A DNA stretch of 40,500 bases from Methylovulum sp. (lineage in GTDB: Bacteria > Pseudomonadota > Gammaproteobacteria > Methylococcales > Methylomonadaceae). Positions 514 through 40,500 of the stretch are shown here, piece by piece (position 1 is the stretch's first letter; every line of letters starts with the position of its first letter). A program made the position numbers and the translations under genes. The DNA is taken from positions 1-40,500 of the forward strand of contig JAURZI010000010.1 of assembly GCA_030653435.1 (NCBI GenBank). Direction: 5' to 3'. The notes under the pieces were generated by a model. The model was not told the origin of the DNA. It worked only from the letters and a program-made list of their open reading frames with translations, and made no database searches.

Positions 514-1620
514 TTAGAACACTTTGATTAACTGCTGCATAGGCAACTGCTTGGGATCTATTGAAATAATCGTGAACAAATCCGTTAAAATCTTAAACGA
601 GTCACGATTCCACGTGGAATGTTCCTCATCATCCACGTCGGCTATTTTGTAAGTCATCCCCAAATATTCAACTTCCGCAACAGCCGGAGTCAACTTATCA
701 TGTTCTCCCCACCTCATTTTCAAAATTGGCTTTCTTTCAAAATCAGGCACTTCGGTAAGCTTTCCGCCAGTCTGCAACCATTCGTCAAAATGTTGTTGTG
801 AGTGCCCTACCGCCCCCAATATCGCTGAAAAAGGCCTCATAATAAACGATACTTTTGGAATCCCGTCACTCGTATTGAGCTTAACCATGCCATCTTGCCA
901 AAAACTATAGCTCGGATCTGAATACAGTTTCGTTAACAAATCCCCGGCTTCAGGAGGAATTTCCAAGACATTTTCGCCTTTAACCACATTAATATTAAGG
1001 GCTTGATTAAGTTGCAATTGCCGGGTTAGCGCGGCTAAGCGCAAGAAGTTCCTGAAATTATGGGGCCGCAACTTGTTGTCCGGCATATTGTTTAACACCA
1101 TTTTCTTGCCCGATGGATATTCCAAATTGACCGATACCAATAATATCCTCATCAATTGGTCAACAGGGACGCCTTGTCTGAGCTGCTCGAAGAAAACTTT
1201 AGTGTCAATAGGCGAAAATAACGATGTTGCAAAAACCTCTCCGCTTAACGGCGTAAAGGAAAAATTCGGCGATTCCGTCGCACTCAGGCCAAGCGTGCCG
1301 ACAAAGCTGAAGGCCTTGGTTAACACGTTCGCAACGACTGCGCCGATTGTTCTTGAGTCAGTGAATGTGCCACCCATCGTGGCGCCAAAAGAAAACGAGG
1401 AGTTAATGCTGGACATCTGCATAAAATAACTCGAGTGTGAATTCGCCCTGCGCGCCAAATTCATCAGCATTTGCTCATTGGACAAGTCCGCATAGGTTTG
1501 GGACATCTTGCTAAAAGAATCTTTTAAAGCCACACCTCCGCACCCTGACAGCACAGCCACGCTTAAAAAAATCGTTAGCCCTTTAACAATTATAGATCCT
1601 GCACAACCCCGTTTTTTCAT
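514..1620 (-). CDS. Predicted outer-membrane lipoprotein of unknown function
   Basis: This encodes about 368 residues. I place the start at the ATG at 1618-1620 (MKKRGC), because GAGGTGG lies about 6-8 nt upstream; a GTG three codons earlier overlaps that ribosome site and is a worse choice. The N-terminus is a lipoprotein signal: basic residues, a hydrophobic core, then the lipobox LSGC with the lipidated Cys at residue 27. Gly follows at +2, so there is no inner-membrane retention Asp and outer-membrane sorting is expected. The mature part has a Ser/Phe/Gly-rich segment (SSFSFGATMGGTF) and an otherwise soluble-looking C-terminal half. I do not recognise the family. It follows the exporter gene by about 57 bp in the same direction, so it may be co-transcribed and help export or immunity; that is inference. 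The gene is visibly AT-richer than the NRPS genes. Confidence 0.8.
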   Translation of the reverse strand: MKKRGCAGSIIVKGLTIFLSVAVLSGCGGVALKDSFSKMSQTYADLSNEQMLMNLARRANSHSSYFMQMSSINSSFSFGATMGGTFTDSRTIGAVVANVLTKAFSFVGTLGLSATESPNFSFTPLSGEVFATSLFSPIDTKVFFEQLRQGVPVDQLMRILLVSVNLEYPSGKKMVLNNMPDNKLRPHNFRNFLRLAALTRQLQLNQALNINVVKGENVLEIPPEAGDLLTKLYSDPSYSFWQDGMVKLNTSDGIPKVSFIMRPFSAILGAVGHSQQHFDEWLQTGGKLTEVPDFERKPILKMRWGEHDKLTPAVAEVEYLGMTYKIADVDDEEHSTWNRDSFKILTDLFTIISIDPKQLPMQQLIKVF

Positions 1621-1677
1621 GTATCCCACCTCGTCAGTTAATCAAAAAAACCAGTTCCATCGCTCATGCTCGATCCG

Positions 1678-3333
1678 CTACTGTAACATACTGTCTTCTA
1701 CCATAAGGCCCATGTCCATAACAAATAACCTGTCACAATGGGTGAAATATTTTTCATCATGGGTCACGACGATAACCGTCTTGTTCAGATCTTTTAATTT
1801 TTGCAAAATGACTTCATAAAAAAACTGCCTGAACTCAGGGTCCTGATCGGCCGCGACTTCATCGAAAACATAAATCGACTTGTCTTCCAATAAAGCAATA
1901 ATCAAGGCCAATCGCTTCTTCTGCCCTGTCGATAAACTGGTATTGGTGAAGCGTCCGTCCTTATAACCGGTTTTTTTATCCAGCCCCATGATTACCAGAT
2001 ATTCGTTGACTGAGGCGGTATCAATATCGTGTTGGCCATAAAACCGGTCAAACAAATGAAAATCGGTAAAAATAATTGAAAACAGGTTGCGGTAATTGTT
2101 TAACAAGCTGCTGTCTATGGCATGGTCATCGACCACTATGGATCCCGAATCGGGCTTATAAAGCCCCGTCAATAGCTTAAGGAAAGTGGATTTGCCGCTG
2201 CCGTTGCCGCCACGGATAAAAACCAGCTCGCCGCGATTGATGGTTAAATCAAAAGGCCCTACGGCAAATGCCCTGGTTTGGTTTGGTCCGGGATACATGA
2301 ACTGGACGCGGCTGATGACTAATTGCCTAAAATAATCAGGCGCCATAAATACGACCCGCTCGTCGGTTATCGCCTCTTTTGCCGCAAACAGCCTCTCCTC
2401 CAGATTATGCAAAAAATCCACCGCAACATTGGCTCTGGCTACGCTGGGGATCATATCAATGATGATGACGATAGGCCCCATAATAAACAAAACGATAGTT
2501 GTGATCGACATAATCTTGTCAGCATCCAAGTCGCTGATCTGCGGCAATAAAAAAACGATGCTGGCCATCAGCACATAAAAATAAAGCTGGGCATAAAGCT
2601 GTAGATTAACATTGCTGATGTCGGTTTTCGTATTATGCTGCATCGCCTCTTCGGATACGCGCCCCATATAATTGCGGTACAAGTCATCGCTTTTGTCGCG
2701 ATTGATCTTTAACTCGTTAAAGCCATCCAGCACATGCTGCATATAGGTTAAATACTCATTTTGCTTGGCCAGGGCCTGCTGCATGGTCTTACTGATGGAT
2801 TTGACCAACACATAGATAGTGATGACCGCCCCCGTGATACAGATCACCGCCAGCAAAAAAGCCATTGTAGAAATACTGGCCATATACGCAAAAGAGCAGA
2901 GCAGCATGACCATCGCCGGGAATCCGTCGGCCAAACGGTGCGCTCCCTGGGAAATCAGTTCGGTTTTTTCCGAGAGCACCGACAGGATTTGCGACTTGCC
3001 AATTTCTTCATAAGACAATAGCTTCAAATCCCTGAGACCTTCCAAAATCCTGCCCCGGTATTGAAAAATACCAATTTGCACCAATCGGCTGATACTGTGG
3101 GTGACATAACGCTTGCTCAGGAAAAAAAGCGCCACGCACAGCACGAATAGCAGGAATAGACGGGCATCCAGTTCGGCATTGTCAAAATCCTTGGCCGCCG
3201 CGTTTAAAATAACCAAAACCAGCGCATTGATGGCACCCGATACCGTAGATGCAATGACCAGCAGCAGCTTGGTGTGCGGAGTCCTGATCGCTAAAAAATC
3301 AAGCAATTTTGATTTGATGACCGGACTCTTCAT
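1678..3333 (-). CDS. Cyclic-peptide-type ABC transporter, fused permease and ATPase (PvdE/SyrD/YojI-like)
   Basis: This 551-residue protein fuses a membrane domain to an ATPase domain. About six hydrophobic helices lie near residues 22-44, 57-73, 136-155, 158-178, 245-265 and 275-293. The nucleotide-binding half has Walker A GGNGSGKS (375-382), signature LSTGQ (467-471), Walker B IYVFDE (487-492) and the switch His in VVTHDE (H525). Size and order fit the cyclic-peptide exporter family that includes PvdE and SyrD, which move non-ribosomal peptides across the inner membrane. Its ATG overlaps the stop codon of the JmjC gene as ATGA, so the two are translationally coupled. The likely role is export of the peptide made by this cluster to the periplasm; cargo and direction are inferred from context. 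Confidence 0.9.
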   Translation of the reverse strand: MKSPVIKSKLLDFLAIRTPHTKLLLVIASTVSGAINALVLVILNAAAKDFDNAELDARLFLLFVLCVALFFLSKRYVTHSISRLVQIGIFQYRGRILEGLRDLKLLSYEEIGKSQILSVLSEKTELISQGAHRLADGFPAMVMLLCSFAYMASISTMAFLLAVICITGAVITIYVLVKSISKTMQQALAKQNEYLTYMQHVLDGFNELKINRDKSDDLYRNYMGRVSEEAMQHNTKTDISNVNLQLYAQLYFYVLMASIVFLLPQISDLDADKIMSITTIVLFIMGPIVIIIDMIPSVARANVAVDFLHNLEERLFAAKEAITDERVVFMAPDYFRQLVISRVQFMYPGPNQTRAFAVGPFDLTINRGELVFIRGGNGSGKSTFLKLLTGLYKPDSGSIVVDDHAIDSSLLNNYRNLFSIIFTDFHLFDRFYGQHDIDTASVNEYLVIMGLDKKTGYKDGRFTNTSLSTGQKKRLALIIALLEDKSIYVFDEVAADQDPEFRQFFYEVILQKLKDLNKTVIVVTHDEKYFTHCDRLFVMDMGLMVEDSMLQ

Positions 3334-4247
3334 GCCCTATTGCCACTGAGCAGTTTTTTTAACTTAAAAATAAACCGGTTGAAGCGCAACACCCAGTGCC
3401 AAGGCAAGCGGTTCATCAGCAGCATGACGATTGACCGTGACGAGTTAAAATTGCGCCAAAAAGGCCGTACTTTCCAAAAGTGGTTGCAGGAACACACATA
3501 ACCATCACCTAAGGCTATTACTTCATGCCACCAATGGGTCGGGATGTACAACAGCTGCCCCGGATTCAATACCAGCTCGTACCGATGCTGTTTGGCCTTG
3601 CTGTAATCCGGGTGTTTATCCAGGTCGGGATTATCGATATTGACCTGGCTGACCCAGAACGGCAACGTATCGTAAAAACCGAATGGATATAAATAGGCGG
3701 TTTGTTCCGGCGGAAACAAAATAACTTTCTTGCTGCCATGTAGCTGTATCAAGGTACCGTCGCCGGGATCAAAATGCAGGGGTTCCGCATGGCCGGCCGG
3801 ACCCACCCAGACATTCAAGGTCGCCCCGCGGATAGCCGGTTCCAGGCCTAAATCCCGCGTTAAAAAACTCAGTTCGGTAGCTATGGATTTTGCCGCTTCG
3901 GTATGGCCGATAGGGCTTTGCGCCAAATACAGATGCTTTATTTTGGCGCTGCCATCCTGGATACAGGCAGCAAACGCCGTCATCGTCATCATTAAGTGGT
4001 CGCAGTATTTAGTCCATAAATGCCTGGGCTTGGCAAAATGCCCTTCCCCGTAGTGGCGAACCAAATACTCATCATCGCCCAAATGACCACACAAAAAATT
4101 GAGATCCCAATCCACCGACGGCTTAATAAAATCAGTAATGACTACAGGTTTGCCCCGATTCCGGTAATCCTGGATAAAGCGTTGTGCCGTTAAGTCCGCC
4201 ATTGACAACTCATCTACCCGCATCCCGCCTAGCGATTGTTCATTCAT
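3330..4247 (-). CDS. Cupin-8/JmjC-type Fe(II)/2-oxoglutarate-dependent hydroxylase, putative tailoring enzyme
   Basis: This 305-residue protein has the JmjC/cupin_8 pattern. PLHFD supplies His158 and Asp160, and IPTHWWHEV supplies His241, giving an H-x-D...H iron site; GSKKVILFPP (171-180) and LNPGQLLYIP are typical strands of the fold. Family members hydroxylate amino-acid side chains of proteins or small molecules with Fe(II), O2 and 2-oxoglutarate. Set between the TE-containing NRPS and the exporter, it probably hydroxylates a residue of the peptide or a carrier-bound amino acid, which could also create a carbamoylation site; the substrate is not evident. The start ATG at 4245-4247 overlaps the end of the NRPS by 8 bp and has GAGAGAA a few bases upstream. 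The C-terminal 40 residues are basic and hydrophobic (PWHWVLRFNRFIFKLKK) and may touch the membrane. Confidence 0.82.
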   Translation of the reverse strand: MNEQSLGGMRVDELSMADLTAQRFIQDYRNRGKPVVITDFIKPSVDWDLNFLCGHLGDDEYLVRHYGEGHFAKPRHLWTKYCDHLMMTMTAFAACIQDGSAKIKHLYLAQSPIGHTEAAKSIATELSFLTRDLGLEPAIRGATLNVWVGPAGHAEPLHFDPGDGTLIQLHGSKKVILFPPEQTAYLYPFGFYDTLPFWVSQVNIDNPDLDKHPDYSKAKQHRYELVLNPGQLLYIPTHWWHEVIALGDGYVCSCNHFWKVRPFWRNFNSSRSIVMLLMNRLPWHWVLRFNRFIFKLKKLLSGNRA

Positions 4248-7200
4248 CGTGTATTCTCTCTAGCGTTTCATTAATTAAACGCGCCACATGGCTAATCTGC
4301 GGCGTCTCCATCATGTTTTCATGGCAACCCGGCAACCAATGCAAGCTTATGCCTAGCCCGGAATCCTGGCTCCAGCCTAAATAATCATCGTCGGTGATGC
4401 GTCGGGCGCCGTCTTTGGCCCTAAACAACGTGATCTGGCTATTGATAGGCGCAGGGTCGTATAACATCTGCAAATTGCTGCGGCAAACATCGAAATAACG
4501 CTTGCAAGCCTCATCATCCATAGCTCTGGGCACTAAGCCAGCTTGTTTGGCGCGGGCAAAAACCCGTTTTAACTGTGCGGCTTCGTCATACTCGCGCAAC
4601 GCTTCGGCGTCAAAACCCAAGCTCGAAAACAGGCTGACCAGGAAGTCGGCATGGTCGGTTTGGGCAACACCGGCTTGGGTCAGTTCGGGATGCGCGGTAT
4701 CCAACAAGCCCAGAAAAGCAATGCTTTCGCCGACGGCCTCAAGCTGGCAGGCCATTTCGTAGGCAACCAGCCCGCCGAAAGAATAGCCTAATAAACAATA
4801 AGGGCCGCGTGCCTGGACTGTTCTTATAGCCTGCACATAATGGGCCGCCATAACCGGCAGCGTCTGCACGATGTCTTGTTGGGCATCCATGCCGGCGGCA
4901 CGTAAACCGTACACAGGTTGCCCATGCCCTAGCGCCTTTGCCAAGTCGTTGTAGCAGATCACATGGCCGCCTACCGGATGGATACAAAACAGCGGTGTCC
5001 GCTCGCCTTGCGCTTGCAACGCGACTAATGGCGTCCACTCTGTTTGGATATCGTCAGCGATTAACCGCGCTAAGCTTTGGATGGTCGAGGCTTGGAAAAT
5101 AGCGGCCAATGGCAGGCTTTTGCCAAAAGTCACCTTAATCTGCGTCATTAAATCCAGCACCAGCAGGGAATGCCCGCCCAGCTCAAAAAAATCATCATCT
5201 GCAGACAATTCCCTGTCCAATTGCAGGATTTCCCGCCATAGTTTTGCCAACGTCTGCTGAACATAACCGACCGGCGGCGACAGCACTGGCGCTACCGGCA
5301 AACTTGCCTTAGGGTCGGGCAAGGCTTTCCTGTCCAACTTGCCGTTCGGTGTCAACGGAAACTCGGTAAGCATGACCAAGGCCGCAGGCACCATAAAACC
5401 AGGCAAACAGGCTTTGCATAGCTCATAAAGCCGTGCCTCCAAGGAAGCGACATCATCGGTGGACGATTTGACATAAGCCACTAATTTCCGGTCACTGGCG
5501 GCCGCATCACCTAGCGTCAACACGACACAATCCTCAACACCGGCGTCCGATAGCAACAGCGTCTGGATTTCGCCTAACTCAATCCGGTAACCCCGTACTT
5601 TCACTTGGTGGTCCAGCCGTCCGTGATAGACCAGCTCACCCAAAGCATCCCCGTCAGGCGCAGTAAAACTGACCAAATCGCCGGTGCGGTATAGTCGCCC
5701 GCCGACAACACCGCTAAACGGGTCGGGCACGAATTTCTCGGCCGTCAGCCTGGGTTGCTTATGATAGCCGCGCGCCAAGCCCATGCCGCCCAAGAACAGC
5801 TCACCCGGCGTACCGGGCAATCCCGGCTGCCCATAAGCATCCAACACATAAGCCTGGGTATTATCGATGGGTTGGCCTATGCACGGGCTGGCATGCGCCG
5901 CGCGTAACGTGTACGTCGAGTAAGTCGTGTCTTCCGATGGCCCGTATAAATCGTAGACTTTTTCAATATGCGGTTTGGCATACAGTTTATTCACTAAGTC
6001 TGTCGATAAAGGCTCACCGGCCAGATTGACTATCCGCACGGAAACCGGCAAGGCATCGGCGCGCAATAATTCTTCAGCCGCCGACGGCACGGTATTAATC
6101 AAGCCAGGCGCCAGATAGGCAAACTCGGCAATCTCGACCACATTACGCAGCAATACGACCGTGCCGCCCGCCGCCAGCGTGGCAAATATCTCAAATACGG
6201 ACAGATCAAAGCAAACCGACGTACCCGCCAACACTCGGCTTAATTGTGCCCCGCTATATACCGTTTGCGCCCAGGCCACCATCGCCACGGCGCTGCGATG
6301 CGTAATCGCTACGCCTTTAGGTTTGCCGGTAGAACCCGATGTGTACAACAAATAGGCAAGATTCTGCTGGCTTAGGCGTTGCCGTCCTACCTCCAGGTTT
6401 AAATCGGCATCCGGCCAGGCTTGATCAAGCAGCAGCATCGAGGTCGCCGCCAAGCTGGCGTGTAACTGCATAGTGTGTGATTCCGTCAGCAAGAGCAGGA
6501 CATCCGCATCTTGCAGCGCGTGTGCCAATCTGGCGCTAGGGTAATCCGGATCCAGCGGCACATAAGCCGCGCCGCTTTTCAATATTGCCAGCAAGGCCAC
6601 AATCAAATCGGGGGTTCGCTGTAGGCACACGCCTATCATGGTTTCCGGCCCGGCACCTTGTGCGGTTAAAATCGCCGCCAGCCGATCCGCTTTGGCATTG
6701 AGTTCGCCATACATTAGCCGAACCCCGGCCTGCTCGACGGCAATAGCTTCAGGACAGCCTACGGCACGTTGCTCGAACAGGGTATGCAAATAAAGCTCAG
6801 CGTTGACCGGCACTGCGTTTGCGTTCCAGTGATGGACAACCCGTTGATATAAGCCGTCATCCAGTAGCGAAAAATCCCCTATCCTGCCGGTGGGCTGCCG
6901 CGCTATCTGCTCCAGCACCCGGAAAAATCCATTGCATAGCCTTTGTATGGTTTCCGCTTTAAACACATCGGTATTGTATTCGAACACGCCCGTCATCTGC
7001 TCGCCGCCTTCTTGTATGGCTAGCGTCAAATCGAATTTGGCCTCTTTTGCGACCAGCGGCAACGGTTCGACCTGTAAATCTGCCAAGCCCAGCGGCTCCG
7101 TACCGACATTTTGATACACGAACAGCACTTGAAAAAACGGCGTCCCTGCCAGATCGCGTTCAGGTTGCAAGGCTTCGACCAGCTTTTCAAACGGCAAGCC

Positions 7201-10200
7201 TTGATGTGCAAACGCATCGATGACTGTTTCCCGCAGTTCGGACAGCAAGCCGGTAAACTGCGGATTGCCGGTAATGCAATGGCGCAACACCAGCGTGTTG
7301 ACAAAAAAACCGATCAGCGGCTCGGTTTCCTGCTGAGTCCGGTTGGCAACCGGCGTGCCTACCGCAATATCCTGCTGTCCGCTATACCGCGCCAAAAATA
7401 CCGTTAATGCCGCCAATAACAGCGTAAAAAACGAGCATTGCGATTGTTCCGCAAGCCGCAGCAAGCTTCGGGTAAGGCTGGCGTCCAGGCTAAACGGCAC
7501 CGAAGCCGCCGCAAATGTCGGTAGTGCAGGCCGGGCAAAATCGGCATGCAAATCCAGCGCGGGCGGATAATCGGCGAGCTTCCGCCGCCAGTATGCCAGC
7601 AGGGTTTCCAGTCTTGCGCCATCCAGCCACTGCCTTTGCCAAACAGCATAGTCGGCATATTGTACGGGCAAAGGCGGCAATAGCTCAGCCGGGGCAGTAT
7701 CCGGCTGCGCACCATAGAGCACAGCCAGTTCCCGTATGAACAAGCCTTGTGACCAACCATCCGACAACAGGTGATGGTTGTTGATGACCAATACGTGCCT
7801 GTCCTGAGCCATCCGTAACAAACGCACCCGTATCAGCGGCAAACAGTCCAGCGCAAACACATAAGCCGATTCCTCAGCCAGGATGTTTTGTAGCTGCTGC
7901 GCTTGCACCCCGACATCGTCAGTGCACAAATCGTCGTGCTGGATCCGCAATTCGTTAAGCCCCAGGATTTTTTGCCTGACTTGCCCGCCTTCCTGCACAA
8001 ATACCGTCCTCAGCATGGCGTGGCGTTGCACAATGGCGTTAAGGCAATGCTGTAATCGCGCCACATCCAGCGCCCCGCTGAGTTTAAGCGCAACCGCCAT
8101 ATTGTAAGCCGTACTTTGCGGATACAATTGCTGTAAAAAATACAGCCGCTCTTGTGCAAACGACAAGGGGTAGGAATCGGCCTGCGGGGCTGGCGTCACG
8201 GCAATGTCGGCATGTTGCTGGCATGCCGCTATCGCCTGGGCCTGCCCACGCAGCGTTGAATGCGTAAAGACTTCACGCACCGGCAGTTTCACGCCAAAAA
8301 CGTTTTGTATGCGGCTGATCAATTGCATAGCCAGTAAGGAATGTCCGCCGGACAGGAAAAAATCGCTGTCGCGGGTCGGTTCAACGGCTAATAATTGTTG
8401 CCAGATAGCAGCCAGACGTGTTTCATCATCCGTCACCGGCGCTTCAGACCTTACCGTTTGATAGTCGCCCGCTTCAGGTTCCGGCAATGCCTTATCATTG
8501 ATTTTGCCGTTAGGCGTCAGCGGCATGGCCTCCAGCCTGACCAGCGCCGACGGCTGCATATAAGCCGGCAACAGGGTCTGCAAGCGGCTACGCAAGCCAT
8601 CGGCATCAAAAGCGTGTTGCGCCGAAACGGTAAAATAGGCCAACAGGCGCTTGCCGCTATCGCCATAATCCCGCGCCAGCACACGGACTTGTTGAATGGC
8701 GGGATCCGTCGCGATTGCCGCAGCTATACCGGACAGCTCAATACGAAACCCGCGTATTTTTACCTGTTGGTCGGCTCGGCCGATAAATTCCATCGCGCCG
8801 TCCTCGCCGCAGCGCACCCTATCGCCGCTGCGGTACATACGCTCGCCGGACTGGGCGGCAAACGGGTCGGGCACAAACTTATCGGCGCTTTCCCTCGATT
8901 GATGCCAATAGCCTTGCGACAAACCGTCCCCGGCGATATACAGCTCGCCGCAGACGCCGACGGGCACCGGTTGAAGGCAGCGATCCAGTATATACAAACG
9001 CGTGTTCGCCAAGGCCCAGCCTATTGGCACTGTTACGGCCTCTGGCGCTACCTGCTGGATGTCATACCAGGACGTAAACGTCGTGTTTTCGGTAGGGCCG
9101 TAAACGTGTAAAAAATGCTCAGGCTTGCCCTGCTCCAACACTTTTCTGACTTGCACAGGATCGACGGCTTCGCCGCCGAACAGCAAATAGCGCAAACCGG
9201 CAAACGCATCGGCCTGTTGCTGGACGATTTGATTGAATAAAGCCGTCGTCAGGAACAGTACATTGATTTTTTGTTGCGCCAGAAACCCGGCAAACGCATC
9301 AGCTGCGAGGCTAATATCCCGATCGACAATAACCAGACTGGCGCCGTTCAGCAATGCGCCCCAAACCTCGAAAGTTGCCGCGTCAAATGCCGTATTGCTG
9401 GCTTGCGCGATACGGTCTCCCGGCCGAATATCGACGTAATCCGTACTCAGCACCAAGCGGTTGATCGCCGCATGGGCCACCGTGACGCCCTTGGGGACAC
9501 CGGTGGAACCTGAGGTATACATGATGTACGCCAACGCATTAGGCCACCCTAAAACTTCAGGGTCCGTATCGGGGTAGGCCGACAAATCCGCCAAATCCAA
9601 GACCAGCAACGGCCCCGCCCCGTTGATCGCCCGCGCAGTATCGGCCAGCGTCGATTGGGTAATCATCAACACGCTATCGGCATCCTCGATCATTAAGGTC
9701 AGGCGCTCCGTCGGATAAGCCAAATCCAACGGCAAATAGCTCGCGCCCGACTTTAACACCGCCAGCAGCACGGCGACCATGTCTATGCCGCGCTCCAGAT
9801 AAAGCGCAACCCTGTCCCCTGCCACAACTCCGTAATCGCTTAACAACCAAGCCAAACGGTTTGCCCAGCTATTCAGTTCGCGATAGCAGACTACGCGATC
9901 ACCGTGTATCAGCGCCGGTTGGTCCGGTGTAGCTTGCGCCTGCTTTTGAAAGTTTTCATGCACGGTCGATAGCCGTGGATAATTGGAGACGCTATTATTC
10001 CTGCCGTAAACAATGGCCCGATACTCATCCTCGGCTAACAGGCAAATTCCGGACAACAGCCCGTCGGGCTTTGCCGCTACCGCTTGCAGCAAATTCACAT
10101 AATACCCCATCATCCGCGCCATGCCGGTTGCGGAAAACAAATCGGTGTCATACTCCAGCGCACAATCCAGACCGTCAGGCGCTTCCTGCACCGATAAGGT

Positions 10201-11469: not shown

Positions 11470-11476
11470 AACCCGG

Positions 11477-14400: not shown

Positions 14401-14773
14401 GCCGCAAGTCGAACACATGACCTGCCCGGCTTAACGCCACCGCTTCGGCCTGCTTGAGTTGCCGTTCCAGGGGGGCAGGAGGGAGCAGCTGTTTTTCCAG
14501 ATTAAAACCGATAGCCGGACGGATCCATTGCGACGGCTCGCCCTGATAATCGGCAAACGTGGTACGGAGGATTTCATGGCGCTGGACTATCTGCGCCAGC
14601 GCCGCTTCCAGCGCAGCAACATCCAAGGTTCCCGCCAGGCGTAAAGCGGTCGTAATATTATAGGCGGTGCTGCCGGGTTGCAATTGGTCAAAAAGCCATA
14701 AGCGTTGCTGGGAAAAAGACAGCGGGAACTGATAAATATCTTCTGTTAAGTCTTGCTGCTCATTATTCATCAT
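11477..14773 (-). CDS. NRPS, C-A(unassigned substrate)-PCP
   Basis: This is a one-module NRPS of about 1098 residues. I start it at the tandem ATGATG (14768-14773), preceded by GGAG at 4-7 nt. A GTG or ATG further upstream would add 20 residues encoded by a palindromic repeat and is unlikely. C domain (about 12-460) is LCL-like with FPLSFSQQRLW and HHIISDG (148-154), fitting acceptance of an L-configured chain from the Val module. A domain (about 475-980) has IIFTSGSTGTPKAAAI, with Ala where the A3 motif normally has Gly after PK, and code DLKSFGADVK, which I cannot assign. PCP core is LGGHS (S1028). The C-terminus (LAELEGLSDDALAALL) is a short acidic helix that may dock to the basic N-terminal helix of the next NRPS. 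The gene follows the carbamoyltransferase by 61 bp. Confidence 0.93.
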   Translation of the reverse strand: MMNNEQQDLTEDIYQFPLSFSQQRLWLFDQLQPGSTAYNITTALRLAGTLDVAALEAALAQIVQRHEILRTTFADYQGEPSQWIRPAIGFNLEKQLLPPAPLERQLKQAEAVALSRAGHVFDLRQGPLLNVVLLTLADDSHVLVSVVHHIISDGWSMGVFMRELAAFYTAQIQGHISSGLPALAIQYGDYALWQREWFVGDIRDRQLSYWQTQLANVPPLLMLPTDKPRPPVQSFAGATWDAALSAQTTAALKQLAAAEGATLNMVLMAAFLVLLHRYSEESDMVIGTPVANRNQLELEPLIGFFANTLVIRADVEPQMSFRDLLRQLKATALAAYEHQDCPFEQLLDVLRPERSLSYSPLIQVFFTFQSASDQTFELPGVSISQLPLPRDNSQFDLAVVAAEQVDGVSLEFGYCTDLFYSDTIKDMAGHFVNLCTHAAARPDIRLGAVPLLAAHDYRTIVQAWNQNRELPLRYATVLDAVDAQIERTPDAVAVVCTGHTLTYRELAERSVRVAKVLMARGVKNGDLVGLCLERSLDMVIALLGILKAGAAYVPMDPHYPEQRLKLIVAGAGLQVVVAQQALAPLLAGLQADAGQLGVYHIEELLAAEAGLGALPKLSGEQLVYIIFTSGSTGTPKAAAIQHKGFANMVLHWYCEKFALQQAFSTLLCTSLSFDLTQKTIFAPLIFGGVLHLYAEAQYDPEQIVKLIESHHVGWFSTTPSAFYPLADAVAARPQALQSLRTVFLGGETIVFSRMQPWLDYAKGRTDIVNAYGPTECSDVCMAFHVDDPGRYVHKNVPLGVTIDNDRVYILDEGLNPVPMGLSGQLCVGGLGVGIGFLNDSRRTAELFLPDEFSVMPGARMYKSGDRVRFTRDGNFEFLCRTDHQVKVRGFRIDLGEIELVLNAHPQVQESVVMAGDNGAGDKFLSAYLVTGAAVPGSAELRDYVAQRLPHYMVPQYWLMLAKMPLTPSGKVDRRALPSPLEAGVAEPGSECRMPENEIEEHLLAIWQAVLDLPVIGTTQNFFELGGHSLNATQVVARIKQVFAVEMPMRVVFEHPTIIQLADWILAAQFDALNAGDQADLLAELEGLSDDALAALLSG

Positions 14774-25263: not shown

Positions 25264-25277
25264 CGAATAGACCCGCA

Positions 25278-33000: not shown

Positions 33001-35675
33001 GTCGCAACCGGCGCTTGCTCCGCGCAGGGTGGCGCAGGCGTTGCATCGACCCAGCAGCGCTGGCGCTGGAACGGATAAGTCGGCAAGCGCAGGCGCTGGC
33101 GCTGTTCGGCTTGATAAAACCTTAGCCAATCCACGTTAACACCGGAACACCAGAGTTCGGCCAGGGTTTGCAGCACAGTAGCGTGGCTGCCGACGGGTAA
33201 ACAGCCCAGACAGCGCTGGCGGTCTTGCAGCACGGGCTTTACCAGGCCTTGCAAAGCCTGCCCTGGGCCCATCTCAAGCAAGACAAGATGCTTAAACTCG
33301 GCGCATAAGCGCTTGATCCCGGAGGCGAATTGCACCGGCTGCAAGAGGTGACGCTGCCAATAATCCAGGCTTAGATCTCGGCTATCCAGCCAATCGCCGG
33401 ATACATTGGACAGATAAGGAATCCGGTTATCCGCCATGTTGACGTTTGCCAAGGCGGTGCCGAAGCTGGCTGCAGCCTGCCGCATCAACGGCGAATGGAA
33501 GGCATGGGCTACCGCCAAAGGTTTGCAGCTAATGCCCTCCGCGTTTAAACGTGACTGCAAGGCATCAATCGCCTGCTGGTTACCGCTGATGACGCATTGG
33601 GCGTCGGCATTGACCGCCGCCAGCGCCAGCCCATCAACCAGCCATGCTTGACAGCGGGCTTCCGACGCCATCACCGCCAGCATGGCGCCCACTTCGCTGG
33701 CCTGCATTAATCGGGCGCGTGCACTGACCAGGCTTAATGCGTCCTGCAAGGAAAACACACCGGCGATGCAAGCAGCGACATATTCGCCCAGGCTGTGCCC
33801 TATCATCGCCGCCGGTTTGATGTTCCAGGCCATAAACAATTGCGCCAAGGCATATTCGATGACAAACAAGGCGGGCTGGGCGTATTGGGTTGTTAACAAC
33901 TGAGCTTCGGCAGCGGCCTCATGACCGGCAGCCGGGAACAACAACTGACGCAAGTCCATACCTAACAAAGGCAACAACCTATCGCAGCAGTCATCGACCT
34001 GCGCTTTAAATACGCTTTCGCTCCGGTATAACTCGGCGCCCATGCCCAAAAGCGGCGCACCCTGGCCGGGAAACATAAAAACGATAACGGGCGCATCGGC
34101 CGCCTGTTGGTAGCCTGTTTCGTTTAACCCGGCTACCGCCTGTCCGGCATTACCCGCAACGACACACTTACGCAAAGCCAGTTCGCGGCGTCCGACCGCC
34201 AAGCTATAAGCGACATCGGCGCAATCCAGCGCCTTATTGTCCTGCAACTGCCGGGCTAACGCGGTAGACAGCTCTTGCAAGGCTTGGGGCGATTTTGCCG
34301 ATAACGGCAGCAACTGCCATGCACGCGGGGAAATACTGGCGGGCATGGTTTCGGGCGCTTCTTCGAGCACGATATGGGCATTGGTTCCGCCTATACCGAA
34401 AGAACTGACCCCGGCGCGGCGCGGCGCGGCGCTTTCAGGCCAGGGTTGCAAGCGGCTGTTGACATGAAAAGGCCCGGTAGCGAAATCAATCGCCGGATTT
34501 GCTTCGCTGTAATGCAACGACGGCGGCAGTTGCCGATGATACAGCGCCAGCGCCGTTTTAATTAAACCTGCAATGCCCGCCGCCGTATCGGTATGACCGA
34601 TATTGCCCTTGACCGAACCCAGCGCACAGTGTTGCGCCAGCGTATCATCGGCAAATGCCAGCTTCAGCGCAGCAATCTCGATAGGGTCGCCCAGCGGCGT
34701 TGCCGTGCCGTGCGCCTCGATATAACCGATGGTTTCGGGCAAGACATCGGCAGCCGCCATCGCTTCGGCTATCACCGCCGCCTGCCCGTTTACGCTAGGG
34801 GCCGTGAAGCCGATTTTATCGGCGCCGTCATTATTGATCGCAGAGCCTTTAATGACGGCAAAAATCGTATCCTTATCTTTCAGCGCATCGCCCAACCGTT
34901 TTAGCAAGACCAGTCCCGCACCGCTGGACGGCACGGTGCCGTTAGCACCGGCGTCGAACGGGCGGCAATGCCCGTCCGGCGAAGGGATGCCGCCTTGCTG
35001 ATATAAATAACCGGTTTGCTGCGGCACCAGCAAGGTCGCCCCGCCTGCAATCGCCGCATCACACTGGAAATCCCATAAGCTTTGGCAAGCGGTATGCACC
35101 GCGACTAACGATGTCGAGCACGCGGTGTTGACCGATACGCTAGGGCCTTTTAAATTCAATTTATAAGACAAACGTGTCGCGGCAAAATCCTTGTCACTGC
35201 CAATCAGCATTTGATAAAAATCAGGCGACGCACCCTGGCTAAAGCTCGCCAATAAATTATTCAGCAAATAGATGTTCATGCCGACCCCGGCATACACCGC
35301 GCACAAGCCTTGGTAGCGGTCAGGATCCAGCGCCGCCTGCTCCAGCAACTGCCAGGCGCATTCCAGCAACAGGCGTTGCTGCGGATCCATCCATTCGGCT
35401 TCTTTAGGCGTGTAACCGAACAAATGGGCGTCGAAATCTTCTATGCCCGTCACCATGCCTTTGGCTTTGACATAGTCCGGATGCTTAAGCAACCCGACAT
35501 CGACACCGGCGGCAAGCAATTCGGCATCGCTAAAAAAACGGATGGTTTCTTCGCCGTCACGCAACATGCGCCAAAACGCGTCTATATCATCCGCGCCGGG
35601 AAACCGGCAAGACATCGCAACGATTGCAATAGGCTCCCATTCGGCCTCCATAGCGGCTTGTTCTATCATACTCAT
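30027..35675 (-). CDS. Type I PKS, KS-AT-KR(with embedded methyltransferase)-ACP
   Basis: This encodes 1882 residues. KS (about 14-440) has the active Cys in ACSTS (C186), His322 in EAHGTA and His361 in GNIGHT. AT (about 530-830) has GHSLG (S628) and HAFH (724-727), the malonyl-CoA type. A KR begins with VYLITGGLGGIG (1117-1128), is interrupted by about 415 residues containing a methyltransferase (LEIGGGSG at 1372-1379, YYFTDI, DVVHATPD, GLAEGWW), and resumes near 1570, ending with catalytic Ser1658, Tyr1671 and Asn1675. The carrier domain core is LGGDS (S1820). No DH or ER is seen, so the extender should stay a beta-hydroxyl, with methylation at the alpha carbon (more likely) or oxygen. Neither the B-type LDD nor the A-type Trp of KR stereotypes is present. 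The acidic C-terminus (DDDETEYEGGVI) probably docks to the TubC domain of the next NRPS. ATGA overlap couples it to the upstream NRPS. Confidence 0.95.
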   Translation of the reverse strand: MSMIEQAAMEAEWEPIAIVAMSCRFPGADDIDAFWRMLRDGEETIRFFSDAELLAAGVDVGLLKHPDYVKAKGMVTGIEDFDAHLFGYTPKEAEWMDPQQRLLLECAWQLLEQAALDPDRYQGLCAVYAGVGMNIYLLNNLLASFSQGASPDFYQMLIGSDKDFAATRLSYKLNLKGPSVSVNTACSTSLVAVHTACQSLWDFQCDAAIAGGATLLVPQQTGYLYQQGGIPSPDGHCRPFDAGANGTVPSSGAGLVLLKRLGDALKDKDTIFAVIKGSAINNDGADKIGFTAPSVNGQAAVIAEAMAAADVLPETIGYIEAHGTATPLGDPIEIAALKLAFADDTLAQHCALGSVKGNIGHTDTAAGIAGLIKTALALYHRQLPPSLHYSEANPAIDFATGPFHVNSRLQPWPESAAPRRAGVSSFGIGGTNAHIVLEEAPETMPASISPRAWQLLPLSAKSPQALQELSTALARQLQDNKALDCADVAYSLAVGRRELALRKCVVAGNAGQAVAGLNETGYQQAADAPVIVFMFPGQGAPLLGMGAELYRSESVFKAQVDDCCDRLLPLLGMDLRQLLFPAAGHEAAAEAQLLTTQYAQPALFVIEYALAQLFMAWNIKPAAMIGHSLGEYVAACIAGVFSLQDALSLVSARARLMQASEVGAMLAVMASEARCQAWLVDGLALAAVNADAQCVISGNQQAIDALQSRLNAEGISCKPLAVAHAFHSPLMRQAAASFGTALANVNMADNRIPYLSNVSGDWLDSRDLSLDYWQRHLLQPVQFASGIKRLCAEFKHLVLLEMGPGQALQGLVKPVLQDRQRCLGCLPVGSHATVLQTLAELWCSGVNVDWLRFYQAEQRQRLRLPTYPFQRQRCWVDATPAPPCAEQAPVATEDLSHWFAAVNWKRIPRPVGKSATADTVLVFDSPEAMAYPPQQPVIRITQGDYYQQFSASEFRLNPEQEQDFEHLFKALPWSSLQSLDVVYAWSIQAEANSAELGGVYFGLLNFCKVLAREHNAVQCRMTVLTRGLFDVTGGETRLNPMQALALGPVKVVPQEYPQIRCRLLDLDPDQPDLPDILIGEGEAVLASRHGHYWSPLLDSVVLDDVPGAEDLIKPQGVYLITGGLGGIGMSIAGFLARRYQATLLLTTRQPFPDNSAWSGLLKDAGLNEAVNFAALKAKLAHEQQALEAELSIPGLNSYPGLKDQLEQLCSLYLLDFFDGAGVAPHGGQIWALDALRAQLGVLPKFDKFLLLLLEILQRDGLILHAADQFSFTLPAARPWAQDIAALEQRINEQFPGFRPLYEMVAYCVRHYREALSGSISAISVLYPDGDRSLISETGRNTVEHSNHRVYYQLLKKHVDDIVDASAEVVRILEIGGGSGVLTGIIAPGLKGKNVEYYFTDIGKSFVLKVQQQAASLGLDFMRFGVFDIFQDPVAQGFDLQSFDLIYGLDVVHATPDIRRAIDCVSRLLKPGGELCLVETPPIPRWYEMVWGLAEGWWYFEDAELRSGTTPLLSPDAWEHVMNADGLFAHVAVFPLTPQQRLDTDCCLVVAKMPGAGKLGGVRDRAETIRALLDMERAGAKVHVHTVDVCDTAAMQKLAQQAGAINGVFHTAASDSRGYIAIQDRQRSLAELRPKVLGTLALQRSIDFKSVDFVLLFSSLNAITGGQGNIAYTAANSYLDAFAHYCRHQDLGRVHVLDWDRWQSIGQALAFEERVLNSSGLKLEGGITDTEGFAAIRRALRSPYPQLLVRTNRAAGVEPQMNPAHDADVPQQTVQQRPHGLQAYRAPETATEHMIAEVWSEVLGIKQPGVDDDFAALGGDSLIAIRVMSRLKTSLAMNLEVKLAFEYATIAKLARQIETLQAAVAITTVSGDDDETEYEGGVI
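30972..32222 (-). other. Methyltransferase insert inside the PKS KR domain
   Basis: Approximate limits of the insert, residues 1152-1568 of the PKS. It has a helical lid (about 1155-1365), then a class I SAM-dependent core: motif I ILEIGGGSG, an acidic strand end in YYFTDIGKSF, FDLIYGLDVVHATPD with the His conserved in PKS methyltransferases, LLKPGGELCLVE, and GLAEGWWYFED. These motifs match PKS C-methyltransferases, though PKS O-methyltransferases are related. The boundaries come from where KR-like sequence stops (LLLTTRQPFP) and resumes (AKVHVHTVDVCD). Confidence 0.8.
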
Positions 35676-38600
35676 CTTCTGGTCCGTCCAAGTCGGTGTT
35701 TTTGTTGTTGCCGTGCACGCTGCCCGGCCTGTTTAACAACTGCGGCAGACCCGTCTGTAGCTTGGCCGTCTGAGCATTGCTCAAGCCGGGCCGCCAGTTT
35801 TGCGATAGTCGGGTAGCGGAACAGATCCACGGTCTGCAATCCGCCCTGGGTTTGTTGCTGTAATAAATTCCAGACCTGCATCAGCAATAATGAATGCCCG
35901 CCGATATCGAAGAAATTATCGTCCCTGCCGATATCATCGCGTTGCAACACCTCGCGCCATATCCCGCCAAGCAGCTGTTCCGCGGCCGATTGCAAGGGTT
36001 TACCGCTGTGCTGCCGGATGCGCCGTTCCGGCTTGGGCAAGGCCTTGCGGTCGATCTTGCCGGAATGCGTCAACGCGAATGCAGCCATGTGTATAAAGTC
36101 GGCAGGTATCATATAAGCCGGTAAGGTGTCCGCGCACCAGGCCCGCAACACCGCGTCTTCAATGTTGTCGCCGCAATAATAGGCATATAGCGTGGCGTCG
36201 CCGTCCCCTGCCCCGCCCACGACGGCGACGGCTTGCCGGATAGCGGGATGTTGCTCCAATACGGTTTCAATTTCACCCAGCTCTATGCGGTAGCCGCGAA
36301 TTTTCGCCTGAAAATCCAGGCGTCCCAGGTATTCAATCTCACCGTTGCTGTGCCGCTTTACCAGATCGCCGGTCCGGTACATGCGTTCGCCTGCCCCGCT
36401 AAACGGGTCGGGGATAAAGCGTTCCGCAGTCAAACCGGCGCGGTTGCGGTATCCACGCGCGACCCCTAAGCCGGCAATCATCAATTCCCCCGGTAATCCC
36501 GGCGGCAACAACTGCATGGCGTCATCGACGATATATAGCCGGGTGTTGCCCATGGCCTCGCCTAACAGCACCGTTGCCGTACCATCGAGCCGCCAGCGCA
36601 TGGACCAGACCGTCGTTTCGGTCGGCCCGTACAGGTTCCAGACCTGTCCGGCGCTAGCATGTAATTGCCCGGCCAGCTTAGCCGATAAGGCCTCGCCGCC
36701 GCATAGCGCTTTGAATGTCGGCGTACCGCGCCAACCCGCAGCCAATAACAAGCGCCAGGTCGCCGGTGTCGCCTGCATGACCGTGATGCCCTGCTGTTGC
36801 AAGAGCGCTTGCAGGGCATAGCCGTCGGCGCTTTGCAGGCTATCGGCGATAACCACCCTGGCTCCTGTGCACAACGGTAGATACAGCTCCAGCGCGGCAA
36901 TATCGAATGCCGGCGTCGTGACCGCCAGCAACCGGTCTTCGGCATTCAGCCCAGGGCGCTGGGCGGTGGTCTGTAGAAAATTGACGATGTTGCGGTGACT
37001 AACCTGTACGCCTTTCGGTGTGCCTGTCGAACCCGACGTGTAAATGATATAGGCCAGATTATCGGGATGCAGGCGCACGTCCGGGCTTTCGTCGCTAACC
37101 GACCGGCACCGTGTCATATCCGCCACGTCTACCGACAGCTCCAGCGCTGACGGGCCATTGACCAGCACCAGCATGGCGCCCGAATCGCCGACCATGTGCT
37201 GCAAACGCTTGGCAGGCAACTGCGGGTCTAACGGCAAATAGGCCGCACCGGTTTTTAATACCGCCAGCAGCGCAACCAGCATGTTCGGGCAACGTTCGAC
37301 GCAAACCGCGATAGTTTTTTCGGGCGCGGCGCCTTGCGCGACCAAATACTGCGCCAAACCGTTGGCCTGTAACTCCAGTTCGGCAAAGGTCAGCGTTTGC
37401 GCGCCGAACTGCACCGCAATACGCTCAGGCGTCAGCCGGACTTGCCGTGCGAGCAGCTGGGGCAAGCTGTCCGCATGCAACGCATAATCCGTGTGCATAG
37501 CCTGCTCATTGGCAACCATCAGCTGTGCACATCCGGCTTCATCCAATAGGCTAAGCTCGGCCAGCCTATCACAGGATGCTTGCAGCATCGCGACGAGTAT
37601 CTGCCGGTAATGTTTGAGCAAGGCATCTATAGCAGCTGGCGCGAACCTATGCTGCTGATAGAAAATCGTCAGCAGCAACTGGCTGCCTGGAGTCACCAAT
37701 ACCGTCAACGGCAAATCGGTTTGCTCGACGACTCGAAAATCTTCCAGCTTAAGCTCGGCAGATTCCCGCCCCAACGTTTCGGCGATAGGGTAATTCTCGA
37801 AAATAAACAGCGTGTCGAACAAGCCCTGTCCGCCGTCTATCTGGCTCCAGCGCTGCACTTCCGCCAGTTGTGCATGGGCGAACTCCAAACGCTGCATGTT
37901 ATCCTTGAACAACTGTTGCAAAAACGGCGTTAGGCCCAGTCCGGCGTGTAGTCGTACGCGCACCGGCACGGTATTGATGTACAAACCCACGCTATCCGCC
38001 ACGCCGTCCATGTCCGCAGGGCGACCAGACACCGTGACGCCGAACACGATGTCGCGGCTATTGCAATAACGGCTGAGCAGCACCGCCCATGCCCCCTGCA
38101 ATACGGTATTCAGTGTGACGCGGCGGGCGCGTGCATAAGCCTCGATGTCCGCCGTCAATCCCTCATCCAGCGACAAGTCCAACCCATGGTATCGTGCTGC
38201 GCTATGCAACTCGCCGCCCAGGTCTATAGCCAGATGGTTAGGGGACGTAAATCCTGCCAGTTGCGCTGTCCAATAGTTTTTCAACGCACCGGCATCCTGC
38301 TCTGCCAGCCAGTCTATATAGGTCTTAAAGGGCAGCCTTTGCGGCAGCTGCGGCGGCTGTCCGCCGAGCTGCGCCGCATATAGCGCGAACAGGTCTTCCA
38401 GTAATTTGGGCAAGCTCCAGCCGTCGAACAGCACGTGGTGGTAAGTCCACAAAAACACATGGCGGTCGGCGCTTAAACGCAATAAGAGACAGCGCATCAG
38501 CGGCGCCTGGGCGGTATCGAAAGCCTCCAGCCTGTCGTCATGCAGGCAGTCATGCACAGCCTGTTGCTGGGCGGTTTTATCCAAGCCGGACAAGTCTGTT

Positions 38601-40500
38601 TCGCGCCACGGCAATTCCACTTGCTTGAAAACCTGTTGCAACGGCTGTCCTGCACCCTGCCAAGCAAAACCGGTACGCAAGACCGGATGCTGCTGTATCA
38701 ATTGCCGCCATGCGTCCCGCCAGGCACCGACATGCAATCGGCCATTGAATTGCCAACTGACTTGTTGCAGATAACTCGCCGACGCCTGTGCGTATACGCT
38801 GTGGAATAACAAACCTTGTTGTAGCGGTGACAAGGGATACACCGCCTCGATATCGTCGGCATGGGCGAGGACGTCTACGTCCGCCGTCAATAATCGCCCC
38901 AGGTTTTGTGCAAAACCATCCAGTAAACGTTTAACCGTATCGGGGTGGAATTGCAAAGGACTGTAACGCCAATCCAACTGCAAACAATCGTCGTGCACGG
39001 CGCTGTTAATATCCATCAGCACATCAAAACACTGGCCCGGCGCACGTTCGTCACCGCGATTTTCCAGCGCTTGCCCGATGAAAACGCCATCGCCATCGGC
39101 GCGACTGAAACGCCCCAGATAATTAAAACGCAGCCCTGTCGTTGCAGCTCCAGACAACTGTTGTTGCAGACTGTCATCTGAAGATAAATACCGGAGCACA
39201 CCGTAACCCAAACCACGGTTCGGCAACGCGCGCAATGCAGACTTCACCGCATCCAGCGCGGTATCGGCTGTTGCCGTCACCGCCAGCGGGAATAAGGTCG
39301 TAAACCAGCCTACAGTACGGGAAACATCCAGCTCCTTAAACACATCCTCGCGCCCATGGCCTTCCAGTTCTATCGACAAGGTTTGTTTGCCCAGCCATTC
39401 CCATAAGGTTTCGACTAAAGCCGCCAACAGGACTTCTTCGACGCTGGCCTGCAACCATCGCGGCGCTTGCATCAGCTGCCGCGTCAACTGGCTGTCCAAT
39501 TGCCAATGTCCAATAACGGTATCGGCCAAGGTGACTGCCAGCCCGTCTGCGGGGTTGTCCAACGGTAAGACGGCGACTGGCACAGCGGCTTGGGTAGTCC
39601 AATACACAGCGTCGGGGCTAGCCTTGGCCCATGACTGCAATTTTTCCGCCCACTGGATATAAGACGTGGTTTTCTGCGGCAAATCAATGCGTTTGCCCTG
39701 CACTGCCGCCAGATAAGCCTGATGCAAATCCGCCAATAAAATACGCCAGGACACGCCGTCCACTGCCAGATGATGTATAACCAACAATAAGCGCCCCGAA
39801 CCCTGGTCGCGGCTGAGGAAATGCACGACGCGCACCAGCGTACCGTTATCCGGTCTGAACGAGGACTGGATAAGCTGGGCTTGCGCCGTCAAATCCTCGG
39901 CTGAGCCATATGCGCCGGTTTGCAAAACCTCGGCCACTCCGACGTCCGCCGCGATATAAAGCCCGGCCTTGCCGTTGTCCATGCTATAGCGCATCCGCAA
40001 AGCATCATGATGTTGCAACAGCGCGCCGACCGCCTGGGCCAATGCCGTGCCGTCAAGATCGGCGGCCACTTCCAGCAACACCGATTGGTTAAAATGGTGC
40101 GCGTCTACAGTCACGTTGGTAAAAAAATAACGTTGTATCGGCGTCGCGACGCAACTGCCGCTGACTATGCCCTGCTCGGCATTCGCGCTGGCCGCAGCCA
40201 GCGTTTGCGCTGCCAACACGGCTATCGTTTGCGCCTCGAACAATTGTTTCAGGCTAAACAGCAAGCCCGCTTGCTTAGCCCTGGAAATGATCTGGATACT
40301 GAGTATCGAATCGCCGCCCAGTCCGAAATAATTGTCGTGTATGCCGACACCCTGCACCCGCAGGACATCCTGCCAGATAGCCGCCAGCGTCTGTTCCACG
40401 GCGTTGCGCGGCGCCGTGTACGCGTGGTGCGCGGCCAACTCCGGTTGCGGCAGGGCTTTGCGGTTGAGCTTGCCGCTGGTGGTCAGCGGCAGTTCATCCA
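35672..40500 (-). CDS. NRPS, 5'-truncated by window: (A)-PCP-E-C-A(Gly)-PCP
   Basis: The frame is open to the right edge. The first visible residues, DELPLTTSGKLNRKALP, are the A10 motif of an A domain outside the window, so a TTG at 40436-40438 is not the start. Counting from that codon: PCP core LGGDS (S44); E domain (about 95-515) with HHLAVDGVSW (222-231), EGHGRE and RTVGWFTTLFP; DCL-like C domain (about 530-970) with YPLSPLQQGLLFHS and HHVLFDG (667-673); A domain (about 985-1470) with IYTSGSTGTPKG and code DILQLGLVWK, one change from the known Gly code DILQLGLIWK; PCP core IGGHS (S1516). All catalytic motifs look intact. The C-terminal tail is basic (RARQQQKHRLGRTRR). It makes a D-configured residue of unknown identity and then adds Gly, which passes to the PKS. 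The stop overlaps the PKS start as ATGA. Confidence 0.95.
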   Translation of the reverse strand, partial: DELPLTTSGKLNRKALPQPELAAHHAYTAPRNAVEQTLAAIWQDVLRVQGVGIHDNYFGLGGDSILSIQIISRAKQAGLLFSLKQLFEAQTIAVLAAQTLAAASANAEQGIVSGSCVATPIQRYFFTNVTVDAHHFNQSVLLEVAADLDGTALAQAVGALLQHHDALRMRYSMDNGKAGLYIAADVGVAEVLQTGAYGSAEDLTAQAQLIQSSFRPDNGTLVRVVHFLSRDQGSGRLLLVIHHLAVDGVSWRILLADLHQAYLAAVQGKRIDLPQKTTSYIQWAEKLQSWAKASPDAVYWTTQAAVPVAVLPLDNPADGLAVTLADTVIGHWQLDSQLTRQLMQAPRWLQASVEEVLLAALVETLWEWLGKQTLSIELEGHGREDVFKELDVSRTVGWFTTLFPLAVTATADTALDAVKSALRALPNRGLGYGVLRYLSSDDSLQQQLSGAATTGLRFNYLGRFSRADGDGVFIGQALENRGDERAPGQCFDVLMDINSAVHDDCLQLDWRYSPLQFHPDTVKRLLDGFAQNLGRLLTADVDVLAHADDIEAVYPLSPLQQGLLFHSVYAQASASYLQQVSWQFNGRLHVGAWRDAWRQLIQQHPVLRTGFAWQGAGQPLQQVFKQVELPWRETDLSGLDKTAQQQAVHDCLHDDRLEAFDTAQAPLMRCLLLRLSADRHVFLWTYHHVLFDGWSLPKLLEDLFALYAAQLGGQPPQLPQRLPFKTYIDWLAEQDAGALKNYWTAQLAGFTSPNHLAIDLGGELHSAARYHGLDLSLDEGLTADIEAYARARRVTLNTVLQGAWAVLLSRYCNSRDIVFGVTVSGRPADMDGVADSVGLYINTVPVRVRLHAGLGLTPFLQQLFKDNMQRLEFAHAQLAEVQRWSQIDGGQGLFDTLFIFENYPIAETLGRESAELKLEDFRVVEQTDLPLTVLVTPGSQLLLTIFYQQHRFAPAAIDALLKHYRQILVAMLQASCDRLAELSLLDEAGCAQLMVANEQAMHTDYALHADSLPQLLARQVRLTPERIAVQFGAQTLTFAELELQANGLAQYLVAQGAAPEKTIAVCVERCPNMLVALLAVLKTGAAYLPLDPQLPAKRLQHMVGDSGAMLVLVNGPSALELSVDVADMTRCRSVSDESPDVRLHPDNLAYIIYTSGSTGTPKGVQVSHRNIVNFLQTTAQRPGLNAEDRLLAVTTPAFDIAALELYLPLCTGARVVIADSLQSADGYALQALLQQQGITVMQATPATWRLLLAAGWRGTPTFKALCGGEALSAKLAGQLHASAGQVWNLYGPTETTVWSMRWRLDGTATVLLGEAMGNTRLYIVDDAMQLLPPGLPGELMIAGLGVARGYRNRAGLTAERFIPDPFSGAGERMYRTGDLVKRHSNGEIEYLGRLDFQAKIRGYRIELGEIETVLEQHPAIRQAVAVVGGAGDGDATLYAYYCGDNIEDAVLRAWCADTLPAYMIPADFIHMAAFALTHSGKIDRKALPKPERRIRQHSGKPLQSAAEQLLGGIWREVLQRDDIGRDDNFFDIGGHSLLLMQVWNLLQQQTQGGLQTVDLFRYPTIAKLAARLEQCSDGQATDGSAAVVKQAGQRARQQQKHRLGRTRR

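Follow-up and report, generated by a model that had tools for sequence, protein, structure and literature searches.

The heinamides and laxaphycins are cyanobacterial lipopeptides whose assembly lines, as described in excerpts of two reports (PMC8471579, PMC7524897), share with the system treated here an adenylation (A) domain with a homoserine (Hse)-type code, cupin_8 enzymes, D-residues and a terminal thioesterase (TE). Heinamide B holds O-carbamoyl-homoserine at position 4, so such chemistry exists, and according to the excerpts of a 2021 review the residue is known from heinamides alone (PMC8471579). In the same excerpts, the Hse and carbamoyl-Hse modules have identical codes with carbamoylation placed later, and no carbamoyltransferase was assignable to the cluster. 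Here we analyse 40,500 nucleotides of Methylovulum sp., a gammaproteobacterial methanotroph (contig JAURZI010000010.1 of assembly GCA_030653435.1; hereafter the window), which encode a hybrid nonribosomal peptide synthetase (NRPS)-polyketide synthase (PKS) assembly line. Whereas the heinamide cluster has no assigned carbamoyltransferase, the window cluster has one embedded in it; the residue order differs from that of heinamides and laxaphycins, and the carbamoyltransferases are not sisters. The codes also do not match the 11- or 12-residue order of laxaphycin A or B.

Further comparisons come from other pathways. In bleomycin, BlmVIII is a ketosynthase (KS)-acyltransferase (AT)-methyltransferase (MT)-ketoreductase (KR)-acyl carrier protein (ACP) module between NRPS modules, and the carbamoyl group sits on mannose. 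Likened by layout alone, the bleomycin-type line resembles the window in having one C-methylating, reducing PKS module flanked by NRPS modules, although bleomycin has Ala before the ketide and the window line has Gly. The natural acceptors of NovN and GdmN are a sugar and an ansamycin hydroxyl, whereas the window enzyme probably acts on a peptide residue. The plantariitin (pla) cluster of Burkholderia plantarii, as excerpted from PMC11858073, holds the carbamoyltransferase plaA in an NRPS/PKS cluster and its product contains Hse; unlike the product proposed here, plantariitin is a linear three-residue lipopeptide with Hse unmodified.

We favour, with slightly better than even confidence, reading the window as the 3' part of a collinear hybrid PKS-NRPS lipopeptide cluster, in which Hse would be carbamoylated by the adjoining transferase, a JmjC enzyme would hydroxylate one residue, and an ABC transporter would export the product. 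Genomes, contigs and loci are denoted below by G, C and L numbers, and G000 is the genome of the window itself.

Results

A hybrid assembly line conserved in methanotrophs

Domain searches confirmed a hybrid NRPS-PKS assembly line with condensation (C)-A-thiolation (T) modules, a KS-AT-ACP module and a TE. The minus strand from 514 to 40498 encodes seven complete C-A-T modules, the A(end)-T-epimerization (E) tail of an eighth and one KS-AT-MT-KR-ACP module, in agreement with a sequence-only reading that had counted at least seven NRPS modules and one PKS module. It also encodes a carbamoyltransferase, a JmjC/cupin_8 protein, an ABC exporter and the terminal TE, so that the genes for the carbamoyl and hydroxyl tailoring expected by that reading are present (Table 1). 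The open reading frames (ORFs) of the cluster are open, and the HHxxxDG motif is intact in all ten C/E domains, as is GG(D/H)S in 9 of 9 carrier domains.

Pocket codes were read by alignment at nine positions. We take the meanings of the Gly, Gln, Ala, Ser, Pro and Tyr codes as given, while the match of genome G321 to heinamide B (below) backs those of Ile, Val and Thr. The Hse and Leu meanings rest on excerpts of PMC7524897. Together with the E domains, the codes give the order D-X, Gly, methylated ketide, D-Gln, D-Thr, Val, N6 residue, Ile, Ala, TE. A tree of C/E domains (printed without support values) groups together the C domains located after an E domain (those of N1, N4 and N5) and sets the remaining four apart, so that all seven fit this order. 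Docking ends agree as well: N3 begins with TubC_N, and in G107 acidic PKS tails face TubC-like heads, as judged by eye. The order proposed earlier, with N6 as its unknown residue, thus holds, and this residue can be named as probably homoserine from the ortholog code DLKNFGSDV.

All eleven minus-strand genes have syntenic orthologs in G107, at 57-73% identity. In G129, ten of the eleven are syntenic at 58-74%, and the eleventh, N6, is present with its A domain mostly gone. G107 (two contigs, C1 being of 5.5 Mb), G129 and G141 carry the same genes in the same order as far as their contigs reach, and G220 does so in part. The syntenic orthologs in G107 and G129 show that the cluster is not a chance arrangement, and this intact-looking PKS-NRPS line is conserved across several methanotroph genera.

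The carbamoyltransferase adjoins a homoserine-like module

The carbamoyltransferase has Carbam_trans_N and Carbam_trans_C domains, and its closest solved structures, over residues 1-663, are the novobiocin enzyme (NovN) and GdmN. We searched 201 family genomes, sampled evenly from a larger group; 76 had a match at E 1e-60 or better, and only G198, G197, G129, G107 and G141, besides the own genome, reached at least 73% identity. Among the best 80 of 261 relatives in a GTDB 220 scan, L055-L059 stood at 69% or more, of which L058 (69%) adds G220. Eight loci combine a carbamoyltransferase of at least 64% identity with a readable 3' side, and in seven of them (window, G107, G141, G129, G197, G220:C105 and G220:C171) the gene directly precedes the N6 C domain, the G197 contig ending inside that domain. 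This adjacency suggests O-carbamoyl-homoserine at N6, which is our leading reading. Adjacency to N6 would be incidental if the carbamoyl group went to a Ser, Thr or ketide beta-hydroxyl, which we consider unlikely, as seven of the eight loci, among them the second G220 copy, preserve this adjacency.

The identity of the residue rests on the N6 code, which is DLKNFGSDV in G107, G141 and both G220 copies. In excerpts of PMC7524897, DLKNFGSDVK is called Hse by antiSMASH 4.1, and the N6 residue is probably homoserine. A search of 311 genomes from the order turned up N6-like A domains (E 1e-115 or better) in five, counting only the candidates scored (four per larger genome, and 7 per genome in the Nostoc family treated below, so that Hse-type domains may be missed); all five also have a carbamoyltransferase of at least 69%. 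The N6 A domains of G107 and G141 are 98% alike and are not independent.

Several observations, to which the Nostoc-family comparison and the search for upstream genes add below, weigh against this reading. First, the window code, DLKSFGADV, departs from DLKNFGSDV in two of its nine positions, so that the substrate may have shifted; G198, of the same genus group, has DLKSFGTDV. At position 278, G107, G141 and G220 carry N; the two Methylovulum-group sequences carry S there and also differ at position 322 (one small alignment shifted the last two N6 positions to VC instead of DV, and the ungapped reading was used throughout). These two changes could mean that the pocket of the Methylovulum lineage takes another residue, possibly pre-made free O-carbamoyl-homoserine. 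We give this a low probability, since the other seven code positions are unchanged and, in the excerpts of PMC8471579, the shared codes of the two heinamide modules go with later carbamoylation. Second, G198 has amylase genes after its carbamoyltransferase, and its N6 lies on a separate 3.2 kb contig. Third, Ser, Thr and the ketide offer other hydroxyls for carbamoylation. The next clade of methanotroph carbamoyltransferases (58-61%) comprises nine loci (L060-L068), four of them with readable A domains in NRPS surroundings: L061 reads Ser, L062 Gly, L065 DSALIAEVW, and L068 Gly and DAATIAAVC. The Hse code is absent from the readable A domains of these four loci (one partial L062 A domain being left out), in favour of a Ser, Thr or ketide acceptor.

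Fourth, the N6 ortholog of Methylobacter (G129; L057, G129:C110:54465-56819) retains C and T domains at 76% and 74% identity to G107, and its A domain has decayed: only 81 of 391 N-terminal columns are left, the C-terminal part is 46% identical to G107, core motifs are changed, and the whole is one open frame. Among other A domains in G129 at E 1e-90 or better, none is above 40% to the G107 N6 A domain. The carbamoyltransferase of the same genome is intact at 74%. Either the N6 carrier of G129 is loaded in trans, or the carbamoyltransferase acts elsewhere. The G129 module is in effect naturally A-less, with C and T conserved. A bolder proposal, which we regard as tentative and somewhat doubtful, is that the methanotroph clusters hold the first cluster-linked O-carbamoyl-homoserine enzyme and that the Methylobacter Hse module is now A-less under selection and loaded in trans.

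The intact transferase beside a dead A domain also fits a different pathway, in which the JmjC enzyme hydroxylates a beta-carbon (of D-Gln, Val or Ile, for instance), the carbamoyltransferase acts on the new hydroxyl and homoserine stays free. Both enzymes are present in every copy read far enough (window, G107, G129, G141 and G220:C105), and the contig of L069 (G220:C293, JAHZJL010000176.1), which carries an overlapping carbamoyltransferase-JmjC gene pair at 3664-6698, has no NRPS match, a further point against carbamoylation at N6. The L069 carbamoyltransferase-JmjC pair is only 53% and 41-42% identical, though; in the cluster, some 10.6 kb separate the JmjC gene from the carbamoyltransferase gene, and the latter sits immediately before the gene of the Hse-type module; and the heinamides give a precedent for carbamoyl on Hse. 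We therefore judge the route through a beta-hydroxyl improbable, and O-carbamoyl-homoserine remains the reading that we prefer.

Two further loci also hold carbamoyltransferases. G000 has a second, edge-truncated carbamoyltransferase (62%; G000:C84:14606-15775) on a contig with an ABC transporter, and in Paenibacillus psychroresistens (G313:C1:3377355-3427257) a DLKNFGTDI A domain and a carbamoyltransferase lie about 50 kb apart in an NRPS/PKS-rich stretch.

A heinamide-like line in the Nostoc family

Genome G321, from the family of the Nostoc genome G311, has a TE-terminated line whose A domains read Ile, Leu+E, DLKNFGSDV, Leu+E and Gln, followed by Ile (A domain in two pieces), DLKNFGSDV+E, Val, Pro-like, Tyr+E and Thr. 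These 11 codes and four E domains match positions 2-12 of heinamide B, with DLKNFGSDV at both Hse positions (residues and D-positions from excerpts of PMC8471579), and we infer that G321 is a heinamide producer. It has three matches to the window carbamoyltransferase at E 1e-60 or better, one of which is full-length (47%, C1:3937977) and some 250 kb away from the last of the cluster domains seen.

Across the family, nine genomes with a Hse-type code (DLKNFGSDV in seven, DLKNFGTDI in two) were compared with 20 controls, the latter being the first 20 listed genomes without a match and not a random draw. A full-length carbamoyltransferase is present in two of the nine and in none of the controls. 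Any match at E 1e-60 occurs in 5 of 9 as against 8 of 20, so there is no clear link or enrichment between carbamoyltransferase and Hse code in this family, and the association was set aside. G311 (DLKNVGGGV, full-length transferase) and G516 and G519 (DLTKIGEVG, no full-length transferase) stand outside both counts, as their codes are not Hse-type. Shared descent of the Nostoc and methanotroph carbamoyltransferases for Hse is likewise not supported by the tree, in which they are not sisters.

The start of the line probably lies beyond the contig

Contig C118 (40500 bp), which the window spans completely, belongs to the 161-contig, 4.66 Mb assembly G000; nothing in that assembly continues to the right of 40500, and the right edge cuts the cluster. 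Aligned to its orthologs, N1 begins close to where their third Ser A domain ends, which bears out the earlier claim that the first modules lie outside the window. Upstream in G107 are three KS-AT-dehydratase (DH)-KR-ACP genes and an N1 of 4722 amino acids, with three Ser codes DVWHISLID, the third module having E, and then Gly. The N1 of G129 is organised in the same way and is accompanied by one further PKS gene and, where the examined stretch ends, by part of another ORF with a KR match. In G107 the C domain of the third Ser module (G107:C1:4766033-4780201, L038) groups with the post-E C domains and the second Ser module is without E; the same is seen in G129. These relatives suggest that the missing start comprises three KS-AT-DH-KR-ACP modules, then Ser, Ser and D-Ser. 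Laxaphycins, in the excerpts on which we draw (PMC8471579, PMC7524897), start on a beta-amino fatty acid (beta-aminooctanoic or -decanoic).

Searches of G000 at E 1e-100, a cut-off that fragments too short would fail, gave best matches of only 46% with a Ser A domain of G107 and 33-45% over parts, with no ortholog, for one upstream G107 PKS gene; the start is thus inferred from relatives. Upstream genes were also sought on G000 contigs with C-domain matches (stretches of C36, C73, C74, C131, C155 and C158) and on C84, where codes, domains and low identity to the window synthetases point to other clusters; this check left out C141, a contig with a partial PKS match. Taken with the N4/N5 split, these matches could mean that the cluster in G000 is a truncated relic. 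N4 and N5 form one gene in G107, G129 and G141, while in the window they overlap by four bases (20128-20131) in different frames beside a run of T, from either a real gene split or an assembly indel. We consider a relic very unlikely, given the open ORFs, the intact C/E and carrier motifs and the place where the contig stops. Over 1269 nt the first two Ser A regions of G107 are 99.9% identical, with the third at 91-93% to both; the three of G129 share about 89%. The contig stops at this repeat-like third Ser A domain, and the start of the G141 contig falls immediately after the corresponding point; an assembly break caused by a repeat is thus a plausible cause of the contig end.

PKS module, hydroxylase and flanking genes

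The AT of the PKS module has the motif HAFH, which we take to be the malonyl type. The best structure matches of the MT are DisA, CurJ and AprA MT2. As DisA and CurJ are C-methyltransferases, an MT closest to them, with the Tyr/Asn motif of the KR, leads us to expect alpha-C-methylation and a beta-hydroxyl; O-methylation by this MT was rejected on the same matches.

The JmjC/cupin_8 protein matches PF13621 (Cupin_8) and FIH and has the HxD...H iron motif, and is a putative 2-oxoglutarate hydroxylase. Cupin_8 enzymes have been proposed as the scytocyclamide hydroxylases, and in excerpts of that report the hydroxylated residues lie in modules with E domains (PMC7524897). By analogy, D-Ser, D-Gln or D-Thr would be the candidates here.

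Elsewhere in G000 (C73:79209-80870), an ABC transporter 72% identical to the window exporter lies beside another PKS-NRPS gene. The lipoprotein-like ORF, for which Pfam and NCBIfam searches returned no family, is kept at the same place in G107, G129 and G141. Past this ORF, genes for DUF697, Band_7 and periplasmic-binding proteins lie in G107, and ORFs of similar appearance are arranged likewise in G129. The MAPEG-family ORF that lies between N3 and N4 in the window is probably outside the pathway; at this place G107 has another ORF (266 aa, minus strand) and G129 has none of at least 120 aa.

Table 1. Genes and domains of the window, with nine-position pocket codes.
Feature	Position	Strand	Remark
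N1, cut by contig edge: A(end)-T-E then C-A-T, code DILQLGLVW (Gly)	35672..40498	-	first module D-Ser by orthology only
PKS: KS-AT (HAFH motif)-MT inserted in KR-ACP	30027..35675	-	MT closest to DisA, CurJ; KR Tyr/Asn motif
N3: TubC_N docking-C-A-T-E, code DAQDIGVVD (Gln), D-Gln	25278..29963	-	
MAPEG-family ORF between N3 and N4	24830..25249	+	
N4: C-A-T-E, code DFWNVGMVH (Thr), D-Thr	20128..24669	-	
N5: C-A-T, code DAFWLGGTF (Val)	16958..20131	-	
O-carbamoyltransferase, NovN/GdmN type	14835..16826	-	
N6: C-A-T, code DLKSFGADV, homoserine-like	11477..14833	-	
N7: C-A-T (DAFFLGVTF, Ile)-C-A-T (DLFNNALTY, Ala)-TE	4240..11469	-	
JmjC/cupin_8 protein, FIH-like, HxD and HWWH motifs, overlaps N7 gene	3330..4247	-	
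Cyclic-peptide-export-type ABC transporter	1678..3333	-	302 bits vs TIGR01194 cut-off 286
Lipoprotein-like ORF	514..1629	-	no Pfam or NCBIfam match

Discussion

We propose the following pathway. The chain would start on the three KS-AT-DH-KR-ACP modules seen in orthologs, giving a polyene-like acyl cap, and Ser-Ser-D-Ser would come next, again by analogy with the orthologs. The full line would then read acyl-Ser-Ser-D-Ser-Gly-(alpha-methyl-beta-hydroxy ketide)-D-Gln-D-Thr-Val-Hse-Ile-Ala-TE, in which Gly and the ketide would together yield 4-amino-3-hydroxy-2-methylbutanoate. The carbamoyltransferase may act on the side-chain hydroxyl of homoserine, whether free, carrier-bound or after release, giving the residue that heinamide B also holds according to the excerpts of PMC8471579. 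The JmjC enzyme would hydroxylate one residue, and the adjoining ABC transporter probably exports the product.

The cluster is ordinary in kind and its product is probably new. In open-licence papers on NRPSs of methanotrophs, Methylovulum, Methylomonas and Methylobacter, no product with this residue order was found, and O-carbamoyl-homoserine, searched under several spellings in the open-licence literature, led only to PMC8471579. If the proposed pathway is true, a residue of one cyanobacterial lipopeptide group extends to methane-oxidising bacteria, and the window enzyme represents a candidate transferase type for the carbamoylation that was left without an enzyme in the heinamides. It would also mean that a conserved lipopeptide is made by organisms that matter for methane turnover.

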